Shown here piece by piece: positions 22,998 through 62,144 of a stretch of DNA of 64,000 nt; position 1 is the stretch's first letter; each line of letters begins with the position of its first letter. The stretch is taken from the IMG/VR virus record IMGVR_UViG_3300032236_001503, positions 62,001 to 126,000 of that record, one strand, 5' to 3'. The stretch comes from a virus. The notes under the pieces were generated by a model that saw only the letters and a list, made by a program, of their open reading frames with translations, did not search any database and was not told the origin of the DNA. The translations under genes and the position numbers were made by a program.

Positions 22998-23393
22998 ATG
23001 TCAAACCGAAAAAGGAAAACAAATATACCTTCATTGTCTTCGGTTGAAAACATAAAAAACAACATAAAAACAAAATCCACTGATTCAGTAGAAGAAATTT
23101 CAAAAAAAGTTTTTGAGGCAATATCAAATGTTGAACTTCAAAAAAGTATAGATAAGTGGATGAAAGAAAATAAAAAAGAACAAGTAGTATCAATGCGAGA
23201 TTTAGGTATTCTTAAGGGTATTATTTCGGAATACCTTGATACCTATTTAGTATTTGGATATAATGTAAATGGAGAAAGAATAATTTTACAAAACTTTAAA
23301 AATGCAAGAGATAGGGATGCTATTATGGAATTCCTTAAAACCATTTTTCTTAAACAACAACACGAGAATTTCTTAGATCAAGACGATGAGTAA
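22998..23393 (+). CDS. Hypothetical protein
   Basis: 131 residues, not recognised. Basic N-terminus (SNRKRKTNIP), helical middle, and a C-terminus with a hydrophobic-acidic tail (HENFLDQDDE). ATG 22998 is chosen over an in-frame start at 22956 inside the previous gene. Encoded next to the clamp; T4 gp33, a late-transcription co-activator, is of similar size, but no match can be claimed. Confidence 0.65.
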   Translation: MSNRKRKTNIPSLSSVENIKNNIKTKSTDSVEEISKKVFEAISNVELQKSIDKWMKENKKEQVVSMRDLGILKGIISEYLDTYLVFGYNVNGERIILQNFKNARDRDAIMEFLKTIFLKQQHENFLDQDDE

Positions 23394-24384
23394 CCAAGAT
23401 CCATTATGTAATCCCCCATTATTGGATTCATCATTGTTTCCAACTGGTTCTACCTTGGCTACACAAGGTTCTGATTACAATATATTACCATTTTTATGTA
23501 ATTTAGTTAATCTAGCAACTAACCCAAATGTAGATCCCGTATTAGTTACGCCTCCAGCATACGATTGGACACCACATGTAAACTTTTCAGCATTAACTGG
23601 TGTTGGTGATCCTAGGTTCTCAGATGGTGCGATTTTATCCGCTTGTTTCACTGAATTTTTACCAAAAATATTAACGCAGCTTGAGGTTAAAAAAGCTGGT
23701 GGTTATCAAGTCGTAGACACATACATTTGCGATGCCGATGGCAATCCAATTTTAACAAAAACCGAACAACCAATTCAAACTACAGTTGGAAACGGTAATA
23801 TAAATTTATATGGGTATCAGATAGGTTCTGTAACAACAGAACAATTAATGGAACCAATTACTGAGCAATCTATTGCTACATTTTATGCTAATTATATTCA
23901 ATCGCAGCAAAATATTTATGCTGGAGCTTTTGCTACATATATAAACACGGTTTACACACCAACTGCATGCAAAAACAACGTATTTTCTTCTAATGGTTGG
24001 AGAGCCACCTTAAACACGACATCCATATTCCCTTTATTTTACGTTCAATTAGACTTTTTAATCAATGGCAATGTTGATCATAGTGTATATTTAAAATATT
24101 ATAATGATTCTCAACAAGCAGTTCTCAATAATTTAATTAGTCTTAATTATATACCCAATAATTCAGTAATAAATGTTCAACCAACAATGAAAGCATCAAG
24201 TAATGCAATGATTGCAATGGTTATGAATCCAATTCCTGATTATACAAATACTAATAATTTTGTTAATATCGCAACAAACCAAGTGAATATGTTCTCAGCA
24301 TCGGTTCTTCAAAATTATACGAACCAATATAGTACTTTTATTAAAAATCCGTCAGCATTTAAAGCTACTTATAAGCTCAGTTAA
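23386..24384 (+). CDS. Putative virion protein
   Basis: 332 residues, not recognised. Asn/Thr/Tyr/Gln-rich with repeated NTNNF-like stretches, the composition of the structural proteins encoded convergently. It overlaps the upstream gene by 8 bases, and its stop codon overlaps the stop of the spike gene on the other strand. Transcribed with the replication block, yet structural in composition. Confidence 0.6.
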   Translation: MSNQDPLCNPPLLDSSLFPTGSTLATQGSDYNILPFLCNLVNLATNPNVDPVLVTPPAYDWTPHVNFSALTGVGDPRFSDGAILSACFTEFLPKILTQLEVKKAGGYQVVDTYICDADGNPILTKTEQPIQTTVGNGNINLYGYQIGSVTTEQLMEPITEQSIATFYANYIQSQQNIYAGAFATYINTVYTPTACKNNVFSSNGWRATLNTTSIFPLFYVQLDFLINGNVDHSVYLKYYNDSQQAVLNNLISLNYIPNNSVINVQPTMKASSNAMIAMVMNPIPDYTNTNNFVNIATNQVNMFSASVLQNYTNQYSTFIKNPSAFKATYKLS

Positions 24385-26465
24385 CAATTTCTGAATGGAC
24401 TTAATGTTGGTGGTGGATTGAGTGATCCATCCGCATTGTAATTAGGATACGCTTCAACGTAATTTGTACCATCAGCTACACCATTACCATCACCTTGGAT
24501 GCCATATGCCATATTTCTTGCTCCTGTTCCAGCATTTCGCCCTAATCCTAATCCCAAGCAAAGCGAAATAGGGAGTGATCCAGAATCAGCAGGACTTGTT
24601 CCAGTGCCATTACCTCTAGGTGGCGTTGGTATATTACTAGGTGAAGGTCTTTGACTTTGGAATCCAGCGGTTGTGTCACAATGAACACCTTCATGACCAA
24701 CGTATTGGTGAGTATGCATTCCTGATATATTGTCATGATTGTGAGGACCGGTATAAACGGGTAACATATCAGCATCAACAAATGTATTAGTAAACACAAC
24801 AGGGAAAGTTCCTGCTGCTCCATATGCTCCTGCTGGTGGTACTGTCACCCAAGCAATACTTTCTTTAGCCACCATTAATGGCGTATAACCATTCGCATTA
24901 ACAGCCCAAGCTAATCCTGTAGGTATGCCTTGATTATCTAATGGTACTGCCAATTTAGTTGAATTTATAGCTCTTTTTACCACATTATATAAACCAGTAA
25001 CAGTTAATAATTCACCAGTAATAGCATCAAATCCAGCTTTAATAGCGTGTAATGCTTCGGAGAAAACATTTTGACTAGTAGCTTGTTGATTTGCATTAAA
25101 TGGTGGTGGACTATTCCAAGATGAACAATTACCAACCGACTGAATTGATGCCGATGGCTCGGTTTGCATCGACATACTTTTTGTAACTAAATTTGGTGCA
25201 TATAAAGTACCATCATGAGTTATCATTCCTTGAACCGATAAATCACCATTAACGCTTACTTGTCCAGTAAAAAGGGTGTGATCGGAATTTACATGAACTC
25301 CACCATCACCACTATTATCTTTTGCGTCAATTATTACTTGCTTACCTTTAATTTGAGTTAAACCAGCACCAAATAAATTTAAATCACCATGAGTTGTTGA
25401 CATCTCAACGTGACCAACTTTTACTTCAAGTGGTCCATCAGATACCATATGAGTTCCATTACCACCAGAAGTTATATCAACACTATGGGTAGCATCTAAA
25501 TGGATATTACCAACTGGTGAATGATCGGGTGTTAGATAATAATTTAATTCTGATGGAGCACCATTAGAAACTTGAGCCAATTTTCCACCATTAGATTCAT
25601 GTGCAGTTGGGAAATTTGAATTATTTACGTTTTTAACATATGGTGAAACTGTGCTTCTTGTTCCATGTCCTGCTCTAACCACATAATTATCAGCCATGTG
25701 AGCGTGTGTAGTATCCTGACTACCCATTGCTTGCTCATTTTGTTGTATTGATGGATCGCTTTTTATTGCCGAAATAGCCGCTTGGTTTGCAGCATCATAA
25801 TCGGGAACTTTTATATGCGAACCATCACAATTTGGATGATTACAAGTTCCACTTTTAGTAAATGTATTATTAGTAAAAATACTCATCATTGGTATGACTA
25901 ATCCACCAATAACTTTTCTAAAGGTTGCATAAGAAAATGGCATATATGGGGGCCAAATTTGACCCAATCCACCAAGCATTCTATCTAAAAATGCACTAGC
26001 TCTATCATTTGTTACTTTTTGATTACATACTGGACATGGAACTGTTTTAGTAGCATCTTTAAATGCATCATTTTTTGCCTGTTGAACATTATCTAAAGAT
26101 TTTTGATGAGCAGTTTGTGCTGCAATTGCTTGTGGACTTCTATTTGCTTTTATTTCAGTTCCACCAGTTTGAGCCATAATATGACTTTGACCTAAACATG
26201 TAAACTGTGAATCACCACCAACCGAATAAGAAACATTTTGCCCAATTGCAAAATGAAAATCGGCTTGCGTATTAAATAAACCATCACCACCTATAAATTG
26301 TAAGAAATTTCCACTCTTATGAAATATTCCAGCCATTGATTGATCCCTAATAATACTGGAACCAGACATTGCTTGGTAATATGAATTCAATTGAATACTA
26401 CCAGCATCAGATGCTAAATTATTAGTCTGACTACTAACTACATTATTTGATACATCTGCTGGCAT
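24381..26465 (-). CDS. Baseplate central spike protein (gp5 C-terminal-like)
   Basis: 694 residues. The middle has strand repeats typical of a trimeric beta-helix or beta-prism (VEMSTTHGDLNLFGAG, KGKQVIIDAKDNSGDG, HTLFTGQVSVNGDLSVQG). Two Cys clusters, CPVC at 144-147 and CNHPNC at 208-213, could bind zinc. Near residues 580-605 a His-rich stretch with HNH and HTH recalls metal-binding spike tips. It follows the gp5-like hub gene by 16 bases and has its own late promoter, so it would correspond to the beta-helix that in T4 is part of gp5. Confidence 0.65.
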   Translation of the reverse strand: MPADVSNNVVSSQTNNLASDAGSIQLNSYYQAMSGSSIIRDQSMAGIFHKSGNFLQFIGGDGLFNTQADFHFAIGQNVSYSVGGDSQFTCLGQSHIMAQTGGTEIKANRSPQAIAAQTAHQKSLDNVQQAKNDAFKDATKTVPCPVCNQKVTNDRASAFLDRMLGGLGQIWPPYMPFSYATFRKVIGGLVIPMMSIFTNNTFTKSGTCNHPNCDGSHIKVPDYDAANQAAISAIKSDPSIQQNEQAMGSQDTTHAHMADNYVVRAGHGTRSTVSPYVKNVNNSNFPTAHESNGGKLAQVSNGAPSELNYYLTPDHSPVGNIHLDATHSVDITSGGNGTHMVSDGPLEVKVGHVEMSTTHGDLNLFGAGLTQIKGKQVIIDAKDNSGDGGVHVNSDHTLFTGQVSVNGDLSVQGMITHDGTLYAPNLVTKSMSMQTEPSASIQSVGNCSSWNSPPPFNANQQATSQNVFSEALHAIKAGFDAITGELLTVTGLYNVVKRAINSTKLAVPLDNQGIPTGLAWAVNANGYTPLMVAKESIAWVTVPPAGAYGAAGTFPVVFTNTFVDADMLPVYTGPHNHDNISGMHTHQYVGHEGVHCDTTAGFQSQRPSPSNIPTPPRGNGTGTSPADSGSLPISLCLGLGLGRNAGTGARNMAYGIQGDGNGVADGTNYVEAYPNYNADGSLNPPPTLSPFRNC

Positions 26466-26471
26466 ATTATA

Positions 26472-26479
26472 TATTTATG
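26472..26479 (-). promoter_or_regulatory. Late promoter for spike gene
   Basis: CATAAATA read on the minus strand, 6 bases before the ATG at 26465. One mismatch from the T4 late box TATAAATA. Confidence 0.6.
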
Positions 26480-26481
26480 AT

Positions 26482-27687
26482 TTAAGATTGATATGCAACA
26501 TTTGAACCATTCAAAACTGATCCAAAATAAACGGGTTTTTGAACATCTCCACCATAGAAAAATACCCAAACTTTAGCACCAACTGCTGGTTTTGAGAAGA
26601 ATCCATTTGCTCCACCATTAGCTACATGAGCAGTGACCATATTAGCAACCATACTTCTATTATTACTATAACCAATAACAGATGTGCCTCCTTGTGGTAC
26701 ATTACCATTTCCTAAATTATTAGCTAAAACGTTACCAGAACCAGCAGCTTCACCTGCTGTGCCATATGCCCTGCTAATTCCACCCATTACTGAGTTATTT
26801 TGATTCAATAATGAATTGAATGCAGCAGCGGTTGCATTAGCTTGAGCATTTGGATCATAGATATTATCAGCAGTTAATCCCCATTGACCTATTGTATTAC
26901 TAAATAAACCTTCAGAAATAACATTTTGACCATTATCACCTTTAAAATTTTCGACATACTGTTCATTAACGGCAATATAACCATTAACAGTAGTAGATTC
27001 ATGAACCATAATTGAATCCATCAAATTAGCCCATTGATCTGCCGTGGTAGTATTACTACTCATATCGAATCCATAATTTGCACCATCTGACGGAGGTGGT
27101 CTACCAGCTAAACTTTGGGCAGCAGCTAAATTTGCAGCATGTGCATCTGCTATTGAAATGAATTGTAAATCACTTGCTGGTTTTTGTACATTAATTCCAC
27201 CTGCCTCATTGCCAACTATTCTATTACCCAATCCCAATGATGCTCCGCTATAAACAGTATATTGTGATGGTTGTGCATTTGCACTTTGATTTAAATTTAA
27301 AGCTGGTGTTATCGGTGTATTCGCACTCGTATTACTAATTGGTGTTGGTGGGTTATTCTGTGCTTGTACAGCATTTGATTGGGGATTTGCTGTAGCAGCA
27401 CCTAAAGATGGATTAACTGGTGCTGATGTGCCACCACCAAAATGTGGAGCAGATGCTTCAGCCCAAGGCAAAACTTCGTATAATTTCTGTGCAACTGCTT
27501 GCGAAATTCCACCAGCTGCTTGTTGAGTTTCAAAAGTTTTAAATGATAAATCTTTTAACTGATCATTCCACCCAGAATAAACCGTGTTACTAACGTTTGG
27601 TATAAAAACCTGTAATCTACTTCTTTTTTCTGGATCTTGGTCATTTATTACAATACCAATATGATTTCCGTGAACAGGCTCGTACAT
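26482..27687 (-). CDS. 5: Baseplate hub OB-fold protein with lysozyme-like domain (gp5-like)
   Basis: 401 residues. HIGIVINDQDPEKRSRLQVFIP (about 9-30) and LPWAEA (73-78) are the first half of the gp5 OB-fold; PAVGAKVWVFFYGGDVQKPVYFGSV (367-391) completes it. In between lie a low-complexity linker and, at about 215-310, a segment resembling lytic transglycosylases (IMVHES with Glu230, then EGLFSNTIGQWG and DPNAQANATAAAFNSLL). It would cut peptidoglycan during infection. The beta-helix that ends T4 gp5 is absent here and appears to be the next gene. Confidence 0.72.
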   Translation of the reverse strand: MYEPVHGNHIGIVINDQDPEKRSRLQVFIPNVSNTVYSGWNDQLKDLSFKTFETQQAAGGISQAVAQKLYEVLPWAEASAPHFGGGTSAPVNPSLGAATANPQSNAVQAQNNPPTPISNTSANTPITPALNLNQSANAQPSQYTVYSGASLGLGNRIVGNEAGGINVQKPASDLQFISIADAHAANLAAAQSLAGRPPPSDGANYGFDMSSNTTTADQWANLMDSIMVHESTTVNGYIAVNEQYVENFKGDNGQNVISEGLFSNTIGQWGLTADNIYDPNAQANATAAAFNSLLNQNNSVMGGISRAYGTAGEAAGSGNVLANNLGNGNVPQGGTSVIGYSNNRSMVANMVTAHVANGGANGFFSKPAVGAKVWVFFYGGDVQKPVYFGSVLNGSNVAYQS

Positions 27688-27688
27688 A

Positions 27689-29260
27689 TTATTTCTTCGG
27701 TGTATTATTACCAGTAAAGACTGAACCTAAATTTGAAAAAGATGTTCCAATATTATTTAAATCATTTCCGATATTATTAAATCCAGCATTGGGTGTATTA
27801 AATGCTGCAAATGGATTTGGTACATTACTAATACCAGTTATGTTTATCGTTTGTGGGATGTGTGGCATGTTATTAACATATGTAGCAGTTCCCTGATTAT
27901 TAACATATGTATTATAATTGAATGTTGATGGAGCAGGTGGAAATGGTGAAACATTTCCATTTTGATTTTGACCCATTGGAGACAATGCAGCGAAATTAGG
28001 TCCGTATTTACTTATTATTTGACCCATTAAATTAGCTTGTAAACTAATTAATGATTGATGATAACCATAATTCATCATACCAGTTCCCAAAGAAGGATTT
28101 AATCCAATTTGATTAACCATATTAATTATTTGATTAACCTGTGGAGGAAAATGTGACTGAGGAGACCCCAATACATTACCAGCTAAGTTATTGGTGTTCA
28201 TAAAAGACTGAAACTGATTTGTATATTGATTTAAAAATGCAGATTGATTAAATAAAGATGAGTAAAATTGACTATCACCAAAAAACGATTCTAATAATTC
28301 TAATATTAAACATAATAAATCTATTGGTATTATGTATTTGTTAATTAAACTTAAAATATAATACTGTATTGCTGCTATAATACCGTTTATTACTGCATAA
28401 ATTTGTTGTACAAGTTGAATTACCCCTTGATAGATATCTCTTAATAAAGCTTCAAATGCAACCATAATTCCATTTATAGCAGCAATAGCTTTTTGAAAAC
28501 TTGCAAATGCAGTCGCAGGTAATGAAAGATAAGCTTGAGTTCTTGCTTTTCCTACATTTTGTTCCAATGCACTATTAATACCTTTATTAACAGTGTTTAA
28601 TAATCTTTCAACTAAGCTGGTTCCTGCTTGTTTTGTGGGTCCGGACATTGGATTGGCTGGTTGTTTATTTGAATTAACACCATGAGTAACTCCGAAATAA
28701 CCTACATCATCAAAACAACCTTTTTTATAAGCTGGTGTTTTTTTAATTATGTTTAAAATAGTTGGATTTAACGGTCCAGCTAATGATTTAAAATCTCTAA
28801 TAAAATTTTGATCTACGTGTGCTTGAGCGTGATCAGGATTTTGCTTTGCTGTCATTACATGGTAATCAAAACCATAAACTAAAAAACATAATAACAAATA
28901 CCAATAGTTATCATTAAGTCTAGAAAAAAAGGATTTAAGTATTGTTAACTCCTGAGTAGTTAATCCAACTTTTTGTTCCAAATCCTTCAAAGAATCTGGT
29001 TGATTATTGTACCAAGCTTTTTGTATACTAGCCTGATGTGTTTGATTTACATTTGCAGCTTCTTTTTCTGCTACTGGTGTCGCTGGCGGTGGGTTCGTAC
29101 CAATAGTCATATTATTGGATACTGAATTTTCACTTGTCAAAGAGGGTGCAGCAACAATGGGTGTAGTTGCAGCTACGACATTAGGATTAGTTACTATCCC
29201 ACTGAATGTACTGGTTCCACCACCTATGGTTAAACTTGATGTATTTGATGAATCAGCCAT
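27689..29260 (-). CDS. Putative baseplate/tail structural protein
   Basis: 523 residues, not recognised. After a low-complexity N-terminus the central part (about 230-340) holds long hydrophobic helices (AIAAINGIMVAFEALLRDIY, YILSLINKYIIPIDLLCLIL) that could span a membrane or pack in a core. The C-terminus is Asn/Gly-rich and repetitive. It is the first gene of the 29260-26482 late operon with the gp5-like hub, so a hub or tail-tip role is plausible by context only. Confidence 0.65.
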   Translation of the reverse strand: MADSSNTSSLTIGGGTSTFSGIVTNPNVVAATTPIVAAPSLTSENSVSNNMTIGTNPPPATPVAEKEAANVNQTHQASIQKAWYNNQPDSLKDLEQKVGLTTQELTILKSFFSRLNDNYWYLLLCFLVYGFDYHVMTAKQNPDHAQAHVDQNFIRDFKSLAGPLNPTILNIIKKTPAYKKGCFDDVGYFGVTHGVNSNKQPANPMSGPTKQAGTSLVERLLNTVNKGINSALEQNVGKARTQAYLSLPATAFASFQKAIAAINGIMVAFEALLRDIYQGVIQLVQQIYAVINGIIAAIQYYILSLINKYIIPIDLLCLILELLESFFGDSQFYSSLFNQSAFLNQYTNQFQSFMNTNNLAGNVLGSPQSHFPPQVNQIINMVNQIGLNPSLGTGMMNYGYHQSLISLQANLMGQIISKYGPNFAALSPMGQNQNGNVSPFPPAPSTFNYNTYVNNQGTATYVNNMPHIPQTINITGISNVPNPFAAFNTPNAGFNNIGNDLNNIGTSFSNLGSVFTGNNTPKK

Positions 29261-29302: not shown

Positions 29303-29914
29303 ATGCCTGAAACTCTATTTTCATACCCCAATGTCATTGGTATAGCTGGTGCTGCTCGTGCTGGTAAAGATACTTTATGTAGGTCTCTACAGAGAGAATT
29401 TATAAAAAAAGGTATTCTAGCCGTTAGAAAATCTATAGCTGGTGATACCGTCAAAGGTGATTTACAAGAACTTCTTGAAAGAAAGTTCAAATTGGATTCT
29501 TTTACTGAAATTACCGAGCAAAAGGAATTTATGAGACCGCTTTTGGTTGAATATGGTAAAATGCAAAGAGCAAAAACGCAAGGTAGATATTTTATTGAGC
29601 AATTTGAACCAGAACAAGATGCGATAAACATTTTACCAGATATCAGATATGTTGAATATCCAAAAGATGAGGTTTTTTGGCTTAAAAATGAAATGAATGG
29701 TTTTCTAATCTTTATTGAAAGAAAAGGAAATTACGATGCTAATGATACAGAAAAGGTAAACAATAAAATCATCAAAAATATGGCAGATTATGTTGTTCAA
29801 TGGGATACAATGCCCGAATGGTCAGAAGAAGGCAGAAAGCTTATTGATCAATATGCTGAAAAGATTATTAAAAAAATGGCTACCATTTACCAAGAGGACA
29901 TGACGCAGCCTTAA
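29303..29914 (+). CDS. 1: Deoxynucleoside monophosphate kinase (T4 gp1-like)
   Basis: 203 residues. The P-loop GIAGAARAGKDTL (about 13-25) with an Asp after Lys is typical of T4 gp1-like dNMP kinases. ILPDIRYVEYPKDEVFWLK is the later conserved R/D block. It phosphorylates dNMPs, linking ThyX and dCMP deaminase to dNTP synthesis. It sits alone on the plus strand within minus-strand structural genes, has its own early promoter, and overlaps the convergent gene by 35 bases. Confidence 0.8.
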   Translation: MPETLFSYPNVIGIAGAARAGKDTLCRSLQREFIKKGILAVRKSIAGDTVKGDLQELLERKFKLDSFTEITEQKEFMRPLLVEYGKMQRAKTQGRYFIEQFEPEQDAINILPDIRYVEYPKDEVFWLKNEMNGFLIFIERKGNYDANDTEKVNNKIIKNMADYVVQWDTMPEWSEEGRKLIDQYAEKIIKKMATIYQEDMTQP

Positions 29915-31820: not shown

Positions 31821-32420
31821 TTAGCAATTAACTTGGTCAACGTTATTTAATAATGAAACGTTTAATTGATTAAAAGCAAATGTAACAGAACAATTTACTT
31901 CACTTGGATCTTGATTAGAAAAATTAATTTCACTTAATCCCGTTGGAAATGCGTTAGTATATGAAAAATTAATTACTTTATTATTATATTCATCCAAAGA
32001 AAATATATTAAAAGTGGAAAAATAATTTGAAACTGGATTGTGAGTATGACCTAAATTTTTAGGAACATCTGGATATGATACTATAGGTGAAGTTGATTTT
32101 TGTGAATTATTAAAAAGATTTAACCAATTCCAAAGTATCCAATAATTTTTATATCCATTATCAACTAAAAATTTTATAGTTAATGGATTATAAGCAGGTC
32201 TTGAATTTGATGATATTTTTGCAACTTGACCACCAAATGGTAAACTAATATCGGGGACTGTTATTGCAGGTACAGGAGAACCATAAATTGTAAATTGTAT
32301 TGGATCAGCCGAATAATTAGTACCAAGAACAGGATCTGATATTGCTTTCATAGCAATAGGTAAATCCAAAATCATGGTGAATTTATCATTTCTAGATCTG
32401 TTTAAAGGTGCTTGGTACAT
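31821..32420 (-). CDS. Tail-tube-fold baseplate protein
   Basis: 199 residues. NPLTIKFLVDNGYKNYWILWNWL, then NYFSTFNIFSLDEYNNKVINFSYTNAFPTGLSEINFS and a final CSVTFAFNQLNVSLL, form the strand order of the T4 gp19-like tube fold. It is one of several tube-fold proteins in this window; position between terminase and hub suggests a hub-to-tube adaptor. Starts 3 bases after the terminase stop. Confidence 0.6.
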   Translation of the reverse strand: MYQAPLNRSRNDKFTMILDLPIAMKAISDPVLGTNYSADPIQFTIYGSPVPAITVPDISLPFGGQVAKISSNSRPAYNPLTIKFLVDNGYKNYWILWNWLNLFNNSQKSTSPIVSYPDVPKNLGHTHNPVSNYFSTFNIFSLDEYNNKVINFSYTNAFPTGLSEINFSNQDPSEVNCSVTFAFNQLNVSLLNNVDQVNC

Positions 32421-32423
32421 AAA

Positions 32424-34304
32424 TTAAAAAAGTATTGATGGCATATAACCATCTCCTTCATATTTATCAGTATCAACTGGTTTAAATGGTCTAGAAATTG
32501 GTTTATCTATTGGTGGTGGTGTTTTACCATCCCAAGCATGTAACCATGCTGAGAAATTAGCAACATCTTGATCCATATCAGGACTGGTATTTTCATCATA
32601 TCTACCTATCCAAGTTAAAGGTGTACTGGTTATTGCTGTTTTCTTATAAATTGATACCTGTCCTTGGAAAATGGGACTTTTTCTGATCAAGTCGGCATTA
32701 TCTATAAGTGGTTTTATCTTTAATGGTCTACCTTGATCATCCAAATCAATGATATTAAAATACTTTGTTGCTAAAGAAGGATCTAATAAAAATAATGCCC
32801 AAACTAATGCTAAAACTCGGTCATCCAAATCTTTATCAGTTCTTTTACTAAAGGTAAAATTTGGTAAACGAACAAAATTTGCCAATTCTAATGCCGTATC
32901 TAAATCATTTAATTTTAAAGCCTTTAAACTATTTGCCCAATATCTAAAGTTAGTAATACCTTTATAACGAGTATTTGTATGATTATGAATACCCATACGA
33001 TTATCGTTATTATAATGCTTACTCATACCTTCAAAAGTATAGGTAACGATATTTTCATAATTATGTGTTTTTGATAAAACGTTCAATACTTCCACACCAT
33101 TGTTATTATTTTCAATTAATATAGGTGGTCGCCCCCAATCTTCTAATATACCCATTATTCTTGTTCCAAAATTATATGGACTAATGTTATTACTAGCAAA
33201 TACTGCAACTTGATCAATGTTACCCAAATCAGATACATCCAATATCTGACAAACGCTATTTGATCTACCAATTCCTTCACCTACGTCAACACCAATTACA
33301 TAGAAAGAACCTTCTTTTGGTTGATTAAATATTTTATAATCACCATTATCCATTACTAAAATTGGTTCTTTACATTGAGCTTTTAATCGTTCTAATTCAG
33401 CAGGATCTATTGCGGTTTTTCCTTTTTCATGGAATACATTTCCATATTCTTGATCAAAATCGTCTTTTGAACCAATAGCATCAGTAGCTTCTTTTTTCCA
33501 TTGTTCATCTCTACCGGGTACGTCCCACCAATTAACCGTTTCTAAATGCCAATCACTATCAGGTTTTTTAGCTTGTTCAACCAATTCATAAAACTTATTA
33601 TCAACACCATTAGGCGTACTAATAACAACGAGTTGTGATTTTTTCATGGAAGAAATAATAGGAATAGCGGATTTCCATAATTCTTTCATGAGATCATTAG
33701 GACAGTGTGCCATTTCGTCAATAATAAGAAGATTACTTGTGCTACCACGAGGACCTGCACTACTGGTAGAACTAATAGTTATTCTAGAACCGTTCTCTAA
33801 TTCGAACCCATCTTTTCTCCAAGACTTAACAGATGGTTTCATCCAAATTGGAAGTTCTTCAAATGACATTCTAATACGAGCAAAAATTTCCTTTGCTGTA
33901 TCTTCTTTATTTGCAACAATTGTGATTCGTTTATCATCTTGAAAACACACCATCCAAAGAGCATAAATGGTGATTGTAGTTGTTTTTCCACTCTGACGGC
34001 TGGAAAGCACCACGTTGAATCTATTATTAACAAATGCTTTTAATAAATTCTTTTGATATTTGTATAATTTAATTCGTTCTTTACCATCTTCGGTAATAAT
34101 ATAGAAATAATTTTCCGCAAAATGCAAAACTTTTTTTGCACAAATCTTTATCTCCTCAATCATCTCAGGAGTCCACTTTATTTGTGCATTACCCCTTAAA
34201 AGATTTTCATTTCCTTTATAAAAACTACCATCTATTAACACATCTTCATTATTAAGATCTGCTAAAGATGATGCATTATCTACTATTTTAGGTTTTCTTC
34301 CCAT
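32424..34304 (-). CDS. 17: Terminase large subunit (T4 gp17-like)
   Basis: 626 residues (T4 gp17: 610). Walker A is SSRQSGKT (about 101-108), Walker B LLIIDEMAHC, and VVISTPNGV the coupling motif. The C-terminal nuclease has VIGVDVGEG with its metal-binding Asp, ILIENNNNGVEV, and the final Asp block. It packages DNA into proheads and cuts it. I chose the ATG encoding MGRKPKIVD at 34304; the upstream extension is not protein-like. No intron or homing gene within it. Confidence 0.93.
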   Translation of the reverse strand: MGRKPKIVDNASSLADLNNEDVLIDGSFYKGNENLLRGNAQIKWTPEMIEEIKICAKKVLHFAENYFYIITEDGKERIKLYKYQKNLLKAFVNNRFNVVLSSRQSGKTTTITIYALWMVCFQDDKRITIVANKEDTAKEIFARIRMSFEELPIWMKPSVKSWRKDGFELENGSRITISSTSSAGPRGSTSNLLIIDEMAHCPNDLMKELWKSAIPIISSMKKSQLVVISTPNGVDNKFYELVEQAKKPDSDWHLETVNWWDVPGRDEQWKKEATDAIGSKDDFDQEYGNVFHEKGKTAIDPAELERLKAQCKEPILVMDNGDYKIFNQPKEGSFYVIGVDVGEGIGRSNSVCQILDVSDLGNIDQVAVFASNNISPYNFGTRIMGILEDWGRPPILIENNNNGVEVLNVLSKTHNYENIVTYTFEGMSKHYNNDNRMGIHNHTNTRYKGITNFRYWANSLKALKLNDLDTALELANFVRLPNFTFSKRTDKDLDDRVLALVWALFLLDPSLATKYFNIIDLDDQGRPLKIKPLIDNADLIRKSPIFQGQVSIYKKTAITSTPLTWIGRYDENTSPDMDQDVANFSAWLHAWDGKTPPPIDKPISRPFKPVDTDKYEGDGYMPSILF

Positions 34305-34308
34305 CGTT

Positions 34309-34316
34309 AATAAATA
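34309..34316 (+). promoter_or_regulatory. Late promoter for 34322 gene
   Basis: AATAAATA, one mismatch from TATAAATA, 5 bases before the GTG start at 34322. Confidence 0.45.
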
Positions 34317-34321
34317 CTTAT

Positions 34322-34708
34322 GTGAATCCCTCCGAATCTGAACCACTAGAAAACGAAAAAATTGTTGATTTAGGTAAAAAAGATGGTGTTTTTGCTTATG
34401 ATAGCCAATGGCCCGTGTTTGTTTTACATAAAACTGATCCAAATGGTATATGGACTAGATTTAAAACAAAAATAGATATTTTAGAATATCAAAATTCTTT
34501 ACAAGATCTTACCATAGAAGAAATAGAAGAATTTCTATATCATAATTCTGATATAGATTTAGATATGAATATATTTGAAGAAGAGATGCCAGAATTTAAT
34601 TTCTTTAAATACAAAAACGAAATATATTGTTACACTTATGGTAAAAAGGGAAAGGATAAAAGTCGATTTTACGTTCGTTTTTACTTTGATCTTGAAGAGA
34701 TTTTTTAA
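34322..34708 (+). CDS. Acidic hypothetical protein
   Basis: 128 residues, not recognised. The start is a GTG; an ATG two bases upstream is in another frame and meets a stop at once. Acidic overall, with WPVFVLHKTDPNGIWTRFKTK and a C-terminal beta segment (RFYVRFYFDLEEIF). It lies on the plus strand between terminase and gp53-like genes, and its stop overlaps the convergent gp53 stop. Confidence 0.6.
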   Translation: MNPSESEPLENEKIVDLGKKDGVFAYDSQWPVFVLHKTDPNGIWTRFKTKIDILEYQNSLQDLTIEEIEEFLYHNSDIDLDMNIFEEEMPEFNFFKYKNEIYCYTYGKKGKDKSRFYVRFYFDLEEIF

Positions 34709-39049: not shown

Positions 39050-40012
39050 TTACTGTCCAAATTCAAGTGCCAAATCTTGGACACTTTTACTGGCATTACT
39101 CTTAATCATGTTGTTAACGCCGTCATTTTGGTTGTTTTCTTTCCTTTTTCTTGCCTCTACTATGATTGATGAATATACTTTTCTTTCTGCTGGTGATAAT
39201 TTTAATACGTATTCAGGGGGTAAATTCTCACCTGCCATATAAAAGATCTCTTCATAAAGAGACTTTACATCATAAGAGAAAAACAACCTTATAAAATCTA
39301 TGAATGATAATGTGTATAAATTAAATGTATTATTTTTAAATGATTCAACCATGAATAAATCACATTGATTTAATTTCTTAACATTTTCTAGAACTAATTC
39401 TTGTACTTTTTTTATTAATGAAACCGATATTTTACAAAAAATTTCATTTTTTTGTATCGAATCAAAATTAGAAAAAATAATTTTCTTATCTCCTATTTTT
39501 ATATATTCTATAAATTCTTGAAAACTATCAAATACAACTTTGAAATCATTATCTATTATATCCTGAAACACTTTTATCGATTTTATGGTGGGCCAACACA
39601 ATTTAATTTCAATGTTATTTTCAGTTATTAAATTATCTTTAATAGCTTCTACTGCACCATAATATAAATTCTTTAAAAATAAATTTAAATTTATTGTAGT
39701 TTTTGCGGTTTTAAATTCAGCATTTTCAGTCTTGGTTATGAACTCTATAGATGAACCAATACTCACAATTCTTAATTTTGTTATGAATAAAACATAATCA
39801 ATTATATTAATATTATCAAAATCATCTGGTGTTTCTAAACACTCTTTAATTGTTTTTAAAACAAAGTTATTATAATCAAAATAATTTTCTTTGGTTTTAG
39901 GAAAAGACAAATTAGCTTTTGACAGAGCTATTTGCTGCTCCGTTGTAATTTCCTTAAACTTTACCTTCTTGTTTGAAAATGGTAATTCTGTACTATAGTT
40001 ATAGTATTCCAC
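39050..40012 (-). CDS. Putative tail/baseplate assembly chaperone, paralogue
   Basis: 320 residues starting at a GTG (40012). LPFSNKKVKFKEITTEQQIALSKA at the N-terminus matches the downstream gene. Helical, Lys/Glu/Asn-rich, with a C-terminal segment LPPEYVLKLSPAERKVYSSI. Probably co-expressed with the tube-like gene 8 bases upstream. The role is inferred from position. Confidence 0.55.
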   Translation of the reverse strand: MEYYNYSTELPFSNKKVKFKEITTEQQIALSKANLSFPKTKENYFDYNNFVLKTIKECLETPDDFDNINIIDYVLFITKLRIVSIGSSIEFITKTENAEFKTAKTTINLNLFLKNLYYGAVEAIKDNLITENNIEIKLCWPTIKSIKVFQDIIDNDFKVVFDSFQEFIEYIKIGDKKIIFSNFDSIQKNEIFCKISVSLIKKVQELVLENVKKLNQCDLFMVESFKNNTFNLYTLSFIDFIRLFFSYDVKSLYEEIFYMAGENLPPEYVLKLSPAERKVYSSIIVEARKRKENNQNDGVNNMIKSNASKSVQDLALEFGQ

Positions 40013-41334: not shown

Positions 41335-43809
41335 TTAGAATTGGTTATTAGCAACTAATTCAGTAAAGTCTACTCCTGTTTGGGTTGCGATGAAGTCACA
41401 CAAGATGAATTCAGCTGTTTTAACTGGTTGGATATAAATTGAAACCTTCAATTGATTATTATCAATGATGTCAGGTGTATTGTTTCTACTATCACATACA
41501 ATCAAGTAGTTGTATAAACCACTATTGATTTTTGCATTATCGAATATTGGCTTTAATGCAGCAACCAAGCGAGTTTGGGTTGTATATGTGTTTGGCTCAA
41601 ATACGAAGTACTTAAGTAATGATTGTGTTTGTTTTTCTAAGGTTAAGAAAAGTTCACGAACATTAACTCTATCGAAAGCAGATGGTGTTCTATAAAGAGT
41701 CTTCTGACCATATACAACATAACCTTCATTTGGGAAATATGCGATTGGGTTCAAGTTCACCTTATAGAGTAAATCTCTCTGCTTTTGTGTTGGGTTAATT
41801 GCGAGATCAACCACATTGGTCAATGCACCTCTTGTGAATCCAGCAACTGCATTCCAAGGGAATGTTTGTTGGAAAGATGTAGCCATTGCAGCTGCAACAT
41901 AACCAGATGATGGAATCCAAACTAATTTGTTAGTTGTTGCATCATTATACTTGATCCAGTTAGCGTATGTAGCAACATAACTACTATTGATTGAACCAAA
42001 CTGATTATTGAGGGGCCAGTAGATATCGTTTGAGAATACAAATCCATTATTGGATGTAACCTTGTTATCTGCACCCTGAACCAATAAATGTCTGATTGGG
42101 TCAGCGACGAAGATGTGATCTTTTCTATTATCATTTGCAAGTGATACGAATTGATCAGCAATACTTAAATAGTCAGCACCGGAACCACTTGTCCATCCTG
42201 AACCACTTCCAGTGATATCGTATAATCCAGTACCATTAGTTACTGAATCGGCACTTGTTCCAAGATTCCATTGGTAGTTATATGTTTCATCATAGAACCA
42301 AGGTAAACCTTGTGGTGTGGCAATTTGCTGCTGATAAGCATTAACACTTGCCCAAATTGTTCCTAATCCAGCTTCTACTGTAATATCAAGTTTAACGGTG
42401 TCATCATTTTGTATTCTTGATAAAACATTTTGTAACTTTAATGGAATATTACCGCAATCCTTTGTTTTATAATCAGTTTGGGACTGATAAACACCTGATG
42501 CATAAAGATTCTGACCAACTGGTGCAACTGAAACCTCTTTAGGTGGAATGTATGCACCATTACTATTTGTTGTACCTGTCCAATTTCCATATTGTGAAAT
42601 ATATGGATTGGTATGTACACTGATATTCTTAGAAGCTTTGTTTACAACATTGTCCAAGAAGAATGATACTGGTGCGCCACCGTTAGGGTTATTTTGGGTT
42701 CTATTTGAATAGAGTGAACCAACATAACCTTCAGCAACACTATATGATAATGTTACAGTATCTTGATTATAAGTTGATGTACCAATCTTAAAGAGAACGA
42801 GTGATAAACTGTCTTGATAAGATGGTGATGAGAAATTATATCCGGTTGGGAAAGTTTCTATAATCTCAGAAATACTCTGTCCACCAAAGGAATTAGCAAC
42901 CGATGTGATTGGACTTGAGATACTAAATCTACTAGCTGGTACAGTGTAATAATCTTGCTGTGTACCATTTTGATCAATAGCAACAACTGATCTTACACCA
43001 GTAATACTTGTAAAGTTTGTTGCTGGGTTAATATTTTGATTACCGCATAAACCAACATAATAACCTTCATAAAGATTATCAACACTTGTTTTTGATTCAT
43101 TGATAATGACTATACCACTACTGAAATTTGATGATAATTGTGCAAAACTAGTAATCGTTGGGAGAATGTATGAACCACCTGCACTTAATGCATTTGTTAA
43201 AGGATAATATGAAAGATTTACACCCGATGTTGAAGCATTGTATGAAACAGATGAAACGTCAGTTGCAGAATTAACATAATGTTGTGAATAGAATCCAGTT
43301 AACGCAGCAGCACTCGTTGATGGTGTTGAAATGATATTAACAGATGATAATACATAAGGACTTACACCCCATGTGATATTATTCTGTTTAATCTGAGCAT
43401 ATTGAGAATCATTCAATAAGATTGAAACTGGTTCTAATAATGTATAATTTGTTGCATTAGCAAAAAGAGGATTATCGGTTGATACAGGGTATACCAATGC
43501 ACTATGATTGCTAGTATATCCAGTGCCAGCACTTTGACCATAAGGTAATCTCACAATATTTAAATTTGCTGGTGATGTATTTAAAATCTGTCTAGCACTG
43601 TGATAGAGGTAACGCTCAGCGGCATTTGATGGAACACCAAAAACACTTTCGTATTCACTGATACTGCTTACATTAATAAGTTCATTTGTAGGTCCTTGTT
43701 CAGCAAATCCCACCGCAAGAACATTTGTATTTCCTGTTGTGTTAGTTATTAAACTAAGATCTACTTCATTAATCTGAACGCCCGGTGATGTTATGGTTAA
43801 AGTTGACAT
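41335..43809 (-). CDS. 18: Tail sheath protein (T4 gp18-like)
   Basis: 824 residues, longer than T4 gp18 (659). The N-terminus TSPGVQINEVDLSLITNTTG and GFAEQGPTNELINVSSISEYESVFG is the sheath signature. The C-terminal domain has GFTRGALTNVVDLAINPTQKQRDLLYKVNLNPI, YGQKTLYR and NVRELFLTLEKQTQSLLKYFVFEPN, conserved in contractile sheaths. The extra length lies in the middle, probably surface-exposed insertions. Confidence 0.92.
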   Translation of the reverse strand: MSTLTITSPGVQINEVDLSLITNTTGNTNVLAVGFAEQGPTNELINVSSISEYESVFGVPSNAAERYLYHSARQILNTSPANLNIVRLPYGQSAGTGYTSNHSALVYPVSTDNPLFANATNYTLLEPVSILLNDSQYAQIKQNNITWGVSPYVLSSVNIISTPSTSAAALTGFYSQHYVNSATDVSSVSYNASTSGVNLSYYPLTNALSAGGSYILPTITSFAQLSSNFSSGIVIINESKTSVDNLYEGYYVGLCGNQNINPATNFTSITGVRSVVAIDQNGTQQDYYTVPASRFSISSPITSVANSFGGQSISEIIETFPTGYNFSSPSYQDSLSLVLFKIGTSTYNQDTVTLSYSVAEGYVGSLYSNRTQNNPNGGAPVSFFLDNVVNKASKNISVHTNPYISQYGNWTGTTNSNGAYIPPKEVSVAPVGQNLYASGVYQSQTDYKTKDCGNIPLKLQNVLSRIQNDDTVKLDITVEAGLGTIWASVNAYQQQIATPQGLPWFYDETYNYQWNLGTSADSVTNGTGLYDITGSGSGWTSGSGADYLSIADQFVSLANDNRKDHIFVADPIRHLLVQGADNKVTSNNGFVFSNDIYWPLNNQFGSINSSYVATYANWIKYNDATTNKLVWIPSSGYVAAAMATSFQQTFPWNAVAGFTRGALTNVVDLAINPTQKQRDLLYKVNLNPIAYFPNEGYVVYGQKTLYRTPSAFDRVNVRELFLTLEKQTQSLLKYFVFEPNTYTTQTRLVAALKPIFDNAKINSGLYNYLIVCDSRNNTPDIIDNNQLKVSIYIQPVKTAEFILCDFIATQTGVDFTELVANNQF

Positions 43810-61652: not shown

Positions 61653-62144
61653 TTAACGATAAAAAAGATACATTTTTTTATCATTTTCATATATAAATGT
61701 AAAGTATTTATAATTTATGGTATGAGCCAAAGTTGATACCATTTTATCATAGAGCTTAACTCTGGATGGTTCAATAGCCATAATTCTGGCAAATTTTGGA
61801 TTAAATTTATCAGCAAAATCTTTTAATCTAGCAAAAACATTACTAAAAACTTCTACTGATTCACCAGAACCTGTTACACCATAAGATGCTTCATTACCTT
61901 TTTCTTCAAATACGATATTCCATACCAATTCATTTGGATGATTTAATACCATATCGTTTAAATCATCTGGTGGAACCGATCCATCATTAACAATAAACAT
62001 AAATTTTTTTATATTCGTGGGATCTGATTCTATGTAAACTCTGTATTCTTTATTATTTTTTGTTATAAAATCCGAAAAGAATTCACCAGCACGAGAACCT
62101 TCTTGCCAGTTTATATCCACATCTATGTTAGTAATATCAAACAT
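61653..62144 (-). CDS. Hypothetical protein
   Basis: 163 residues, alpha/beta (FMFIVNDGSVPPDDL, SVEVFSNVFARLKDFADKFN, CYS-free). It resembles small conserved proteins of large phages, with no known role. Starts 21 bases after the upstream stop. Confidence 0.7.
   Translation of the reverse strand: MFDITNIDVDINWQEGSRAGEFFSDFITKNNKEYRVYIESDPTNIKKFMFIVNDGSVPPDDLNDMVLNHPNELVWNIVFEEKGNEASYGVTGSGESVEVFSNVFARLKDFADKFNPKFARIMAIEPSRVKLYDKMVSTLAHTINYKYFTFIYENDKKMYLFYR

Follow-up and report, generated by a model that had tools for sequence, protein, structure and literature searches.

The stretch analyzed here, a 64,000-nucleotide window covering positions 62,001 to 126,000 of the IMG/VR virus record IMGVR_UViG_3300032236_001503, carries two adjacent genes for a 401-residue OB-fold protein (the hub) and a 694-residue protein (the spike). 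In the hub, the OB fold is interrupted by an insert, and among relatives (designated by L and a number) the loop holding this insert behaves as a cassette slot in which different wall-cutting enzymes are exchanged. We consider it quite likely that the two products are the two chains of a central spike, belonging to a myovirus that is uncultured and distantly T4-like: an OB hub with a hydrolase in a loop and a beta-helix needle with a metal-binding tip. A preliminary description of the sequence had proposed these genes as a divided T4 gp5, and both open reading frames (ORFs) were recovered as described (Table 1).

Support for the OB fold of the hub came from PF04717 (Phage_base_V), the family of the OB domain that phage baseplates share with VgrG. 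The hub matched this family above its cutoff (E value of 3.7e-9; 37.2 bits against 23.8) in two stretches, the better one covering residues 355 to 391, and the whole 163,237-base record that contains the hub and spike ORFs matched PF04717 in two places, both inside the hub ORF. Through this match, the hub has the OB-fold domain of the T4 gp5 family, as had been proposed, interrupted by an insert of 262 residues (96 to 357) between the two conserved OB halves. The second OB half gave weak matches to VgrG and P2 V models, with its profile aligning to VgrG1 residues 416 to 452 (E value of 0.15), and in relatives this half matched phrog_430, the PHROG of T4 gp5 (1.8e-4 for L061, 0.0025 for L012, and 0.0029 for L055). 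The first OB half aligned nominally with T4 gp5 residues 11 to 62 by hhalign, with a probability of 12.5%. In one contig, L036:6992-8121, even the OB barrel was spread over two ORFs that lie in different frames, with a stop at the end of the first half and TAAATAATAAT leading to the new ATG of an ORF with a cassette and the second OB half; this arrangement was seen once and is possibly a sequence error.

The hub and spike genes are separated by 16 nucleotides in the window; counting this one, 26 distinct junctions have separate genes in the same order, with gaps of 4 to 44 nucleotides. Because the split recurs at this many junctions, we rejected an assembly error as its cause. In two relatives, a single ORF contains both parts (L045, 1131 residues; L055, 1074 residues, with L030 and L083 encoding the same protein as L055), and the spike follows the OB half via a short linker. 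Therefore, the hub and spike genes correspond to one gp5-like chain, in agreement with the preliminary description. The one-chain order of OB, lysozyme, and beta-helix found in the T4 gp5 family is not that of the window, which has two ORFs and a nested enzyme candidate. The cut in T4 gp5 is described at Ser351-Ala352, after the lysozyme and between lysozyme and beta-helix (PMC3004832), whereas the gene boundary here falls between OB fold and spike with the enzyme nested in the OB fold, so that the suggestion of a separation that is "genetic rather than proteolytic" is unsupported as worded. Farther out, L049 encodes OB and a short needle in a single chain, which is related to gp5 proteins of Campylobacter phages, and L056 encodes an OB protein with a different, separate spike-like gene. 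Considering these arrangements together with those of L045 and L055, the hub-needle boundary was made or lost more than once; three changes between fused and split states were counted on the tree of relatives, where the fused rows sit on long branches and are placed with little certainty.

The gap between the genes contains a late-promoter-like motif, ATAAATAT, which ends 5 nucleotides before the spike ATG. Among relatives, such a motif is specific to the spike gene, which bears out the earlier proposal of a promoter-like element belonging to the spike. TAAATA preceded 20 of 27 distinct spike starts (1 in antisense; shuffle mean of 4.4 and maximum of 10) versus 2 of 31 hub starts, which were those of L056 and the second ORF of L036, and ATAAATA preceded 15 of 27 and 0 of 31, respectively. 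Within the window, ATAAATA occurred in the 30 nucleotides before the starts of 10 of 48 genes hand-picked from the ORF list and before 1 in antisense (mean of 2.35 and maximum of 7 in 300 shuffles). Strict TATAAATA, the T4 late promoter consensus, was not enriched in the window (11 found versus 13.45 expected). An alternative, which we regard as possible but somewhat doubtful, is that ATAAATA serves translation initiation instead and that both genes share one transcript. With 5 nucleotides between motif and ATG, hardly any leader would remain and a role in translation is conceivable, and Shine-Dalgarno-like cores precede only 5 of the 48 window genes, whose starts are A-rich at positions -6, -5, and -3. 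However, the same loci have the motif commonly before spike starts and rarely before hub starts, which speaks against this alternative. A-rich starts with few Shine-Dalgarno cores resemble translation starts of Bacteroidota, a possible hint at the host.

Between the conserved OB halves, insert length ranged from 37 to 495 residues among 30 unique hubs with both halves. We scanned 29 distinct hub proteins with Pfam, including that of the window (L027, L037, and L040 were left out), and detected a wall-enzyme match in the insert at an E value of ≤0.01 in 7, of which 4 were above the curated cutoff. These four were Phage_lysozyme (GH24) in L026 (6.7e-14), Phage_lysozyme2 in L061 (3e-9), and VanY in L064 (2.4e-16) and L074 (3e-16). 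The three below the cutoff were L033 (M15_3, 4.7e-4; SLT, 1.3e-3), L041 (SLT, 5.6e-4), and L009 (GH75, 1.4e-3). Some hubs carry two domains, namely L026, which also matched M15_3 (0.0075), and L033.

Exchange of the insert was evident between L009 and L011, whose OB halves are identical at 89 of 90 and 39 of 39 residues and whose spikes are identical at 618 of 665. Their DNA is 94% identical on either side; this similarity breaks off at hub codon 125 and returns at codon 314 in L009 or 311 in L011, and between these points we found nothing significant (best blastp E value of 0.81). Likewise, hub codons 121 to 336 of the window are replaced relative to L006, the row nearest to it in the tree (edges set by blastn), with a spike identity of 486/676; within these codons only a faint likeness over the first 18 residues was detected (E value of 0.016). 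A phmmer match of the window to L006, nominally over insert residues 146 to 260, was lost once the linkers were cut away. L001 and L008 are sisters in the tree, which was built without the insert, and have different inserts. Mapping cassettes on the tree gave 14 changes for 24 labelled rows with 12 states and a floor of 11, a count we did not use since the states are many and some are named from motifs. The motif-based labels "SleB-like," "DPBB," and "amidase-like" given to cassettes of L006, L011, L066, L036, L046, and L015 were also not relied on, and searches with Pfam and NCBIfam gave no SleB, DPBB, or amidase match in the scanned members of this group.

As judged from its sequence relationships, the cassette of the window is probably a lytic transglycosylase around Glu230 as candidate catalytic residue. 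By phmmer, the window insert was linked to those of L001 (E value of 1.7e-39) and L023 (5.9e-17), and L023 was linked in turn to L005, L033, and L045 (5.5e-13 to 6.5e-7). The window insert reaches SLT only via such intermediates, and the SLT matches of L033 and L041 stay below the curated cutoff. Across seven aligned rows, the invariant residues were one Glu, two Gly, one Ser, and one Pro, with the Glu being the Glu230 of the preliminary description, correctly numbered there. The proposal of a transglycosylase rather than a T4-type lysozyme is thus likely by these links, with the window itself having no SLT match. Pfam detected no GH24 lysozyme domain in the hub of the window, but L026 has one in the same slot; therefore, the difference from T4 lysozyme is a trait of this cassette and not of the system.

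It is unlikely, in our assessment, that an ordinary gp5-like spike gene was merely broken in two, with the insert decorating it in a structural or glycan-binding role while the actual wall enzyme is encoded elsewhere. Such an arrangement would suit the window insert, which has no direct enzyme match, and the inserts of L012, L013, L037, L040, L049, and L056, in which no domain was recognized (L037 and L040 were outside the Pfam scan). There is also a precedent in phage P1, whose wall enzyme is placed in the tape measure protein and whose gp5 is given no lysozyme in the passages cited (PMC9024508). Against this, four relatives have over-threshold wall hydrolases in exactly this loop, and the window insert is linked by phmmer to SLT-approaching inserts with an invariant Glu.

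For the spike, a single sequence gave no convincing family or PDB match, but a profile of 30 rows matched the beta-helix chains of T4 gp5 (best E value of 0.0092) and, more weakly, Mu gp45 (0.18). The similarity is remote, and the earlier identification of the 694-residue protein as a spike finds its support in the family profile and not in the lone sequence. Gp5_trimer_C was touched by 4 of the 30 members (best E value of 0.0017), under the level for a firm call. Two elements, a four-cysteine module and a double HxH motif near the C terminus, were present in every row having the region, with one truncated row, a different one each time, left out of each count (Table 1). The HxH motif of P2 gpV binds iron, and by analogy with the gpV apex the tip of the spike should bind metal. 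The Pfam Apex model is absent from the match table of the 30 spikes and matches L049. The fused proteins L045 and L055 keep the four-cysteine module, and L055 keeps both HxH pairs while L045 keeps one. A conserved zinc-ribbon-like module set into a spike, retained also in the fused relatives, is unusual for a needle. That the 694-residue protein is instead some other baseplate or fiber protein beside an OB gene appears very improbable, since the lack of a family match for the single sequence and the weak structure model are set against its presence in one ORF with the OB part in L045 and L055, the meeting of its family profile with T4 gp5 beta-helix chains, the C-terminal HxH pattern, and a top structural match, itself weak, to the central spike of the Photorhabdus virulence cassette (PVC).

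The sequences themselves show the split genes and their conserved order, the fused relatives, the nested insert, and the exchange of inserts. From these, we suggest a model where the hub would be an OB adapter of the gp5/VgrG kind with a peptidoglycan hydrolase plugged between its barrel halves. Three hub OB folds would form a collar beneath the tail tube, and three spike chains would wind into a needle docking noncovalently on this collar. The needle would pierce the membrane and then fall off, leaving the collar enzymes free, and the hydrolases projecting from the OB collar would open the cell wall. Recombination in the flanking linkers would swap the wall-cutting enzyme, with hub and needle untouched. 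Because the enzyme does not lie between OB fold and needle in the chain, its exchange could leave the needle unaffected, in line with the swaps observed. Beyond this, we regard as evenly balanced the idea that the OB loop is a dedicated exchange port, at which a T4-like lineage would swap whole peptidoglycan hydrolases with unrelated folds, alone or in tandem, at a fixed site by linker recombination. Wall chemistry would then be tuned to the host apart from adhesion, and a separate needle gene with its late promoter would let the parts evolve and be dosed apart.

Several results weigh against a two-chain, gp5-like central spike carrying a hydrolase. Profile comparisons with T4 gp5 itself gave low probabilities (12.5, 1.8, and 3.7%), and the record of the window matched neither phrog_430 nor, in a search of the whole record, PF09097 (gp27). 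SLT (PF01464) matched neither the hub nor the record, a PDB profile search with the seven-row alignment found no transglycosylase, and 22 of the 29 scanned hubs, that of the window among them, had no enzyme match by Pfam at an E value of ≤0.01. The predicted structures did not confirm the proposed folds. The hub model (19-row alignment) was unusable, with a mean predicted local distance difference test (pLDDT) score of 46.3 and no useful structural match, and the spike model (30-row alignment) was of low confidence (mean pLDDT of 58.5), with the PVC central spike on top of its PDB search at a best E value of 0.23. Both proteins were modelled as monomers, and poor models are expected for an intertwined trimer.

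Table 1. Features of the hub and spike genes in the window
Feature	Position	Strand	Basis
Hub ORF, 401 residues, OB-fold protein with nested cassette	26482..27687	-	Two PF04717 stretches, E 3.7e-9; OB ends conserved across 30 unique hubs
First OB half, residues 1-95, motif ...LPWAE..xPxFGGGT	27403..27687	-	N-half profile
Swappable cassette, residues 121-336	26680..27327	-	DNA similarity to L006 stops and resumes at edges (blastn); no protein similarity past first 18 residues
Transglycosylase-like domain, residues 172-325	26713..27174	-	phmmer links window-L001-L023-L005/L033/L045; 7-row alignment
Glu230 codon, candidate catalytic residue	26998..27000	-	Invariant in 7/7 alignment rows
Second OB half, residues 358-401 (GAKVWVFFYGGDxQxPVYF)	26485..26616	-	PF04717 best stretch, 355-391
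Late-promoter-like motif ATAAATAT in hub-spike gap	26471..26478	-	TAAATA before 20/27 spike vs 2/31 hub starts
Spike ORF, 694 residues	24381..26465	-	Fused to hub in L045, L055
Spike residues 60-105, similar to T4 gp5 triple-stranded beta-helix	26151..26288	-	Best E 0.0092 for profile positions 58-106 vs T4 gp5 chains
Four-cysteine, zinc-ribbon-like module, residues 144-213 (CPVC...C....C)	25827..26036	-	29/29 rows with region
Double HxH tip motif, residues 575-586 (HNHDNISGMHTH)	24708..24743	-	29/29 rows with region

The setting of these genes is that of a contractile-tailed phage. The window contains a tail tube gene (31821-32420; PHROG, E value of 4.8e-19), a T4-type large terminase gene (32424-34442; Terminase_6N, 4.7e-19), and a tail sheath gene (41335-43809; 2.9e-61), and the record includes a T4-like replication set of UvsX-like recombinase, helicase, single-strand binding protein, and DNA polymerase, which together indicate a myovirus with T4-like genes. 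This phage is far from the 50,697 phage records that we searched. Terminase identity was below 60% in all 2,638 matching records, and single-sequence searches of the set found no match for the hub, the spike, the L055 protein, the L066 spike, or the L056 hub and spike. Bacterial genomes were also scanned twice using the OB alignments, and no relative was confirmed. We weighed a 550-residue protein encoded upstream as a gp27 equivalent; its family profile had no PDB match, and 2 of 8 family members touch a tail-protein PHROG.

Other neighbors were also noted. A 332-residue ORF without a family match (23386-24384, plus strand) converges on the spike gene, with an overlap of 4 nucleotides at the end of the latter, and many relatives have ORFs of similar size and place. 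Just upstream of the hub, a 523-residue protein (27689-29260, minus strand) with conserved helical, hydrophobic stretches is kept in relatives, and family and PDB searches with it gave no match. A small ORF (29303-29914, plus strand) lies on the opposite strand within the tail gene run and looks, from a P-loop read by eye, like a nucleotide kinase; many relatives have an ORF at the same place with a similar start (GISGAARAGKDTLC-like). A region at 39050-40012 (minus strand) matched a "baseplate hub" PHROG (E value of 1.8e-11).

Textbooks present the T4 spike as the standard device for puncturing cells, and its design of one chain cut in assembly is usually taken as the pattern. The lineage described here presents the needle as a separate gene and the wall enzyme inside the OB fold, in a slot where enzymes of different chemistry are exchanged among related phages. 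Two questions become testable as a result, namely why T4 needs its cleavage and whether host wall chemistry, rather than the receptor alone, drives turnover of phage tails. The slot also offers a natural design rule for mounting wall-cutting domains on contractile tails.

Among the closest known systems is T4 gp5, which with gp27 and gp5.4 combines an OB adapter, a wall enzyme, and a triple-stranded beta-helix needle, and in which cleavage finally makes the needle a separate chain, gp5C (PMC3004832). In T4, one gene encodes the lysozyme in line, as the middle part of gp5 after the OB domain with linkers to OB and needle, and the lysozyme stays blocked by the needle until the latter comes off (PMC3004832), whereas two genes are used here and the enzyme interrupts the OB fold. 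The four-cysteine module and HxH tip are also unlike T4 gp5, and T4 has gp5.4 whereas a PAAR search of the whole record found no match. VgrG of type VI secretion and the P2 gpV and Mu gp45 spikes form another such group, to which the hub is tied by the alignment of its second OB half with VgrG1 and, weakly, with VgrG and P2 V models. Effector domains of VgrG are described as fused at its C terminus (PMC3004832), in contrast to an enzyme inside the OB loop and a needle on a separate chain. Anabaena phage A-1(L) resembles the present lineage in bearing several wall-cutting domains on a myophage baseplate hub, gp15; there, the enzymes lie on the hub around the spike, and the spike gp25 is described as one chain of an OB and a beta-strand domain without an enzyme (PMC10966104). 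For phiCD508, the passages cited place no wall-cutting domains on the baseplate hub (PMC11948020). The gp5-like protein of Campylobacter phage CP220 and that of L049 share a T4-like OB domain related to the hub family but join it to a short beta-helix in one chain (294 and 366 residues, respectively) without an enzyme. Phage P1 gp5 likewise has OB and needle, in one chain as described in PMC9024508. Among titles and abstract openings, we found no report of a phage spike whose OB loop houses a wall enzyme that is exchanged between near-identical phages, which is no proof of its absence from the literature. The parts themselves, an OB adapter, a beta-helix needle, and tail-borne wall enzymes, are all of known kinds.

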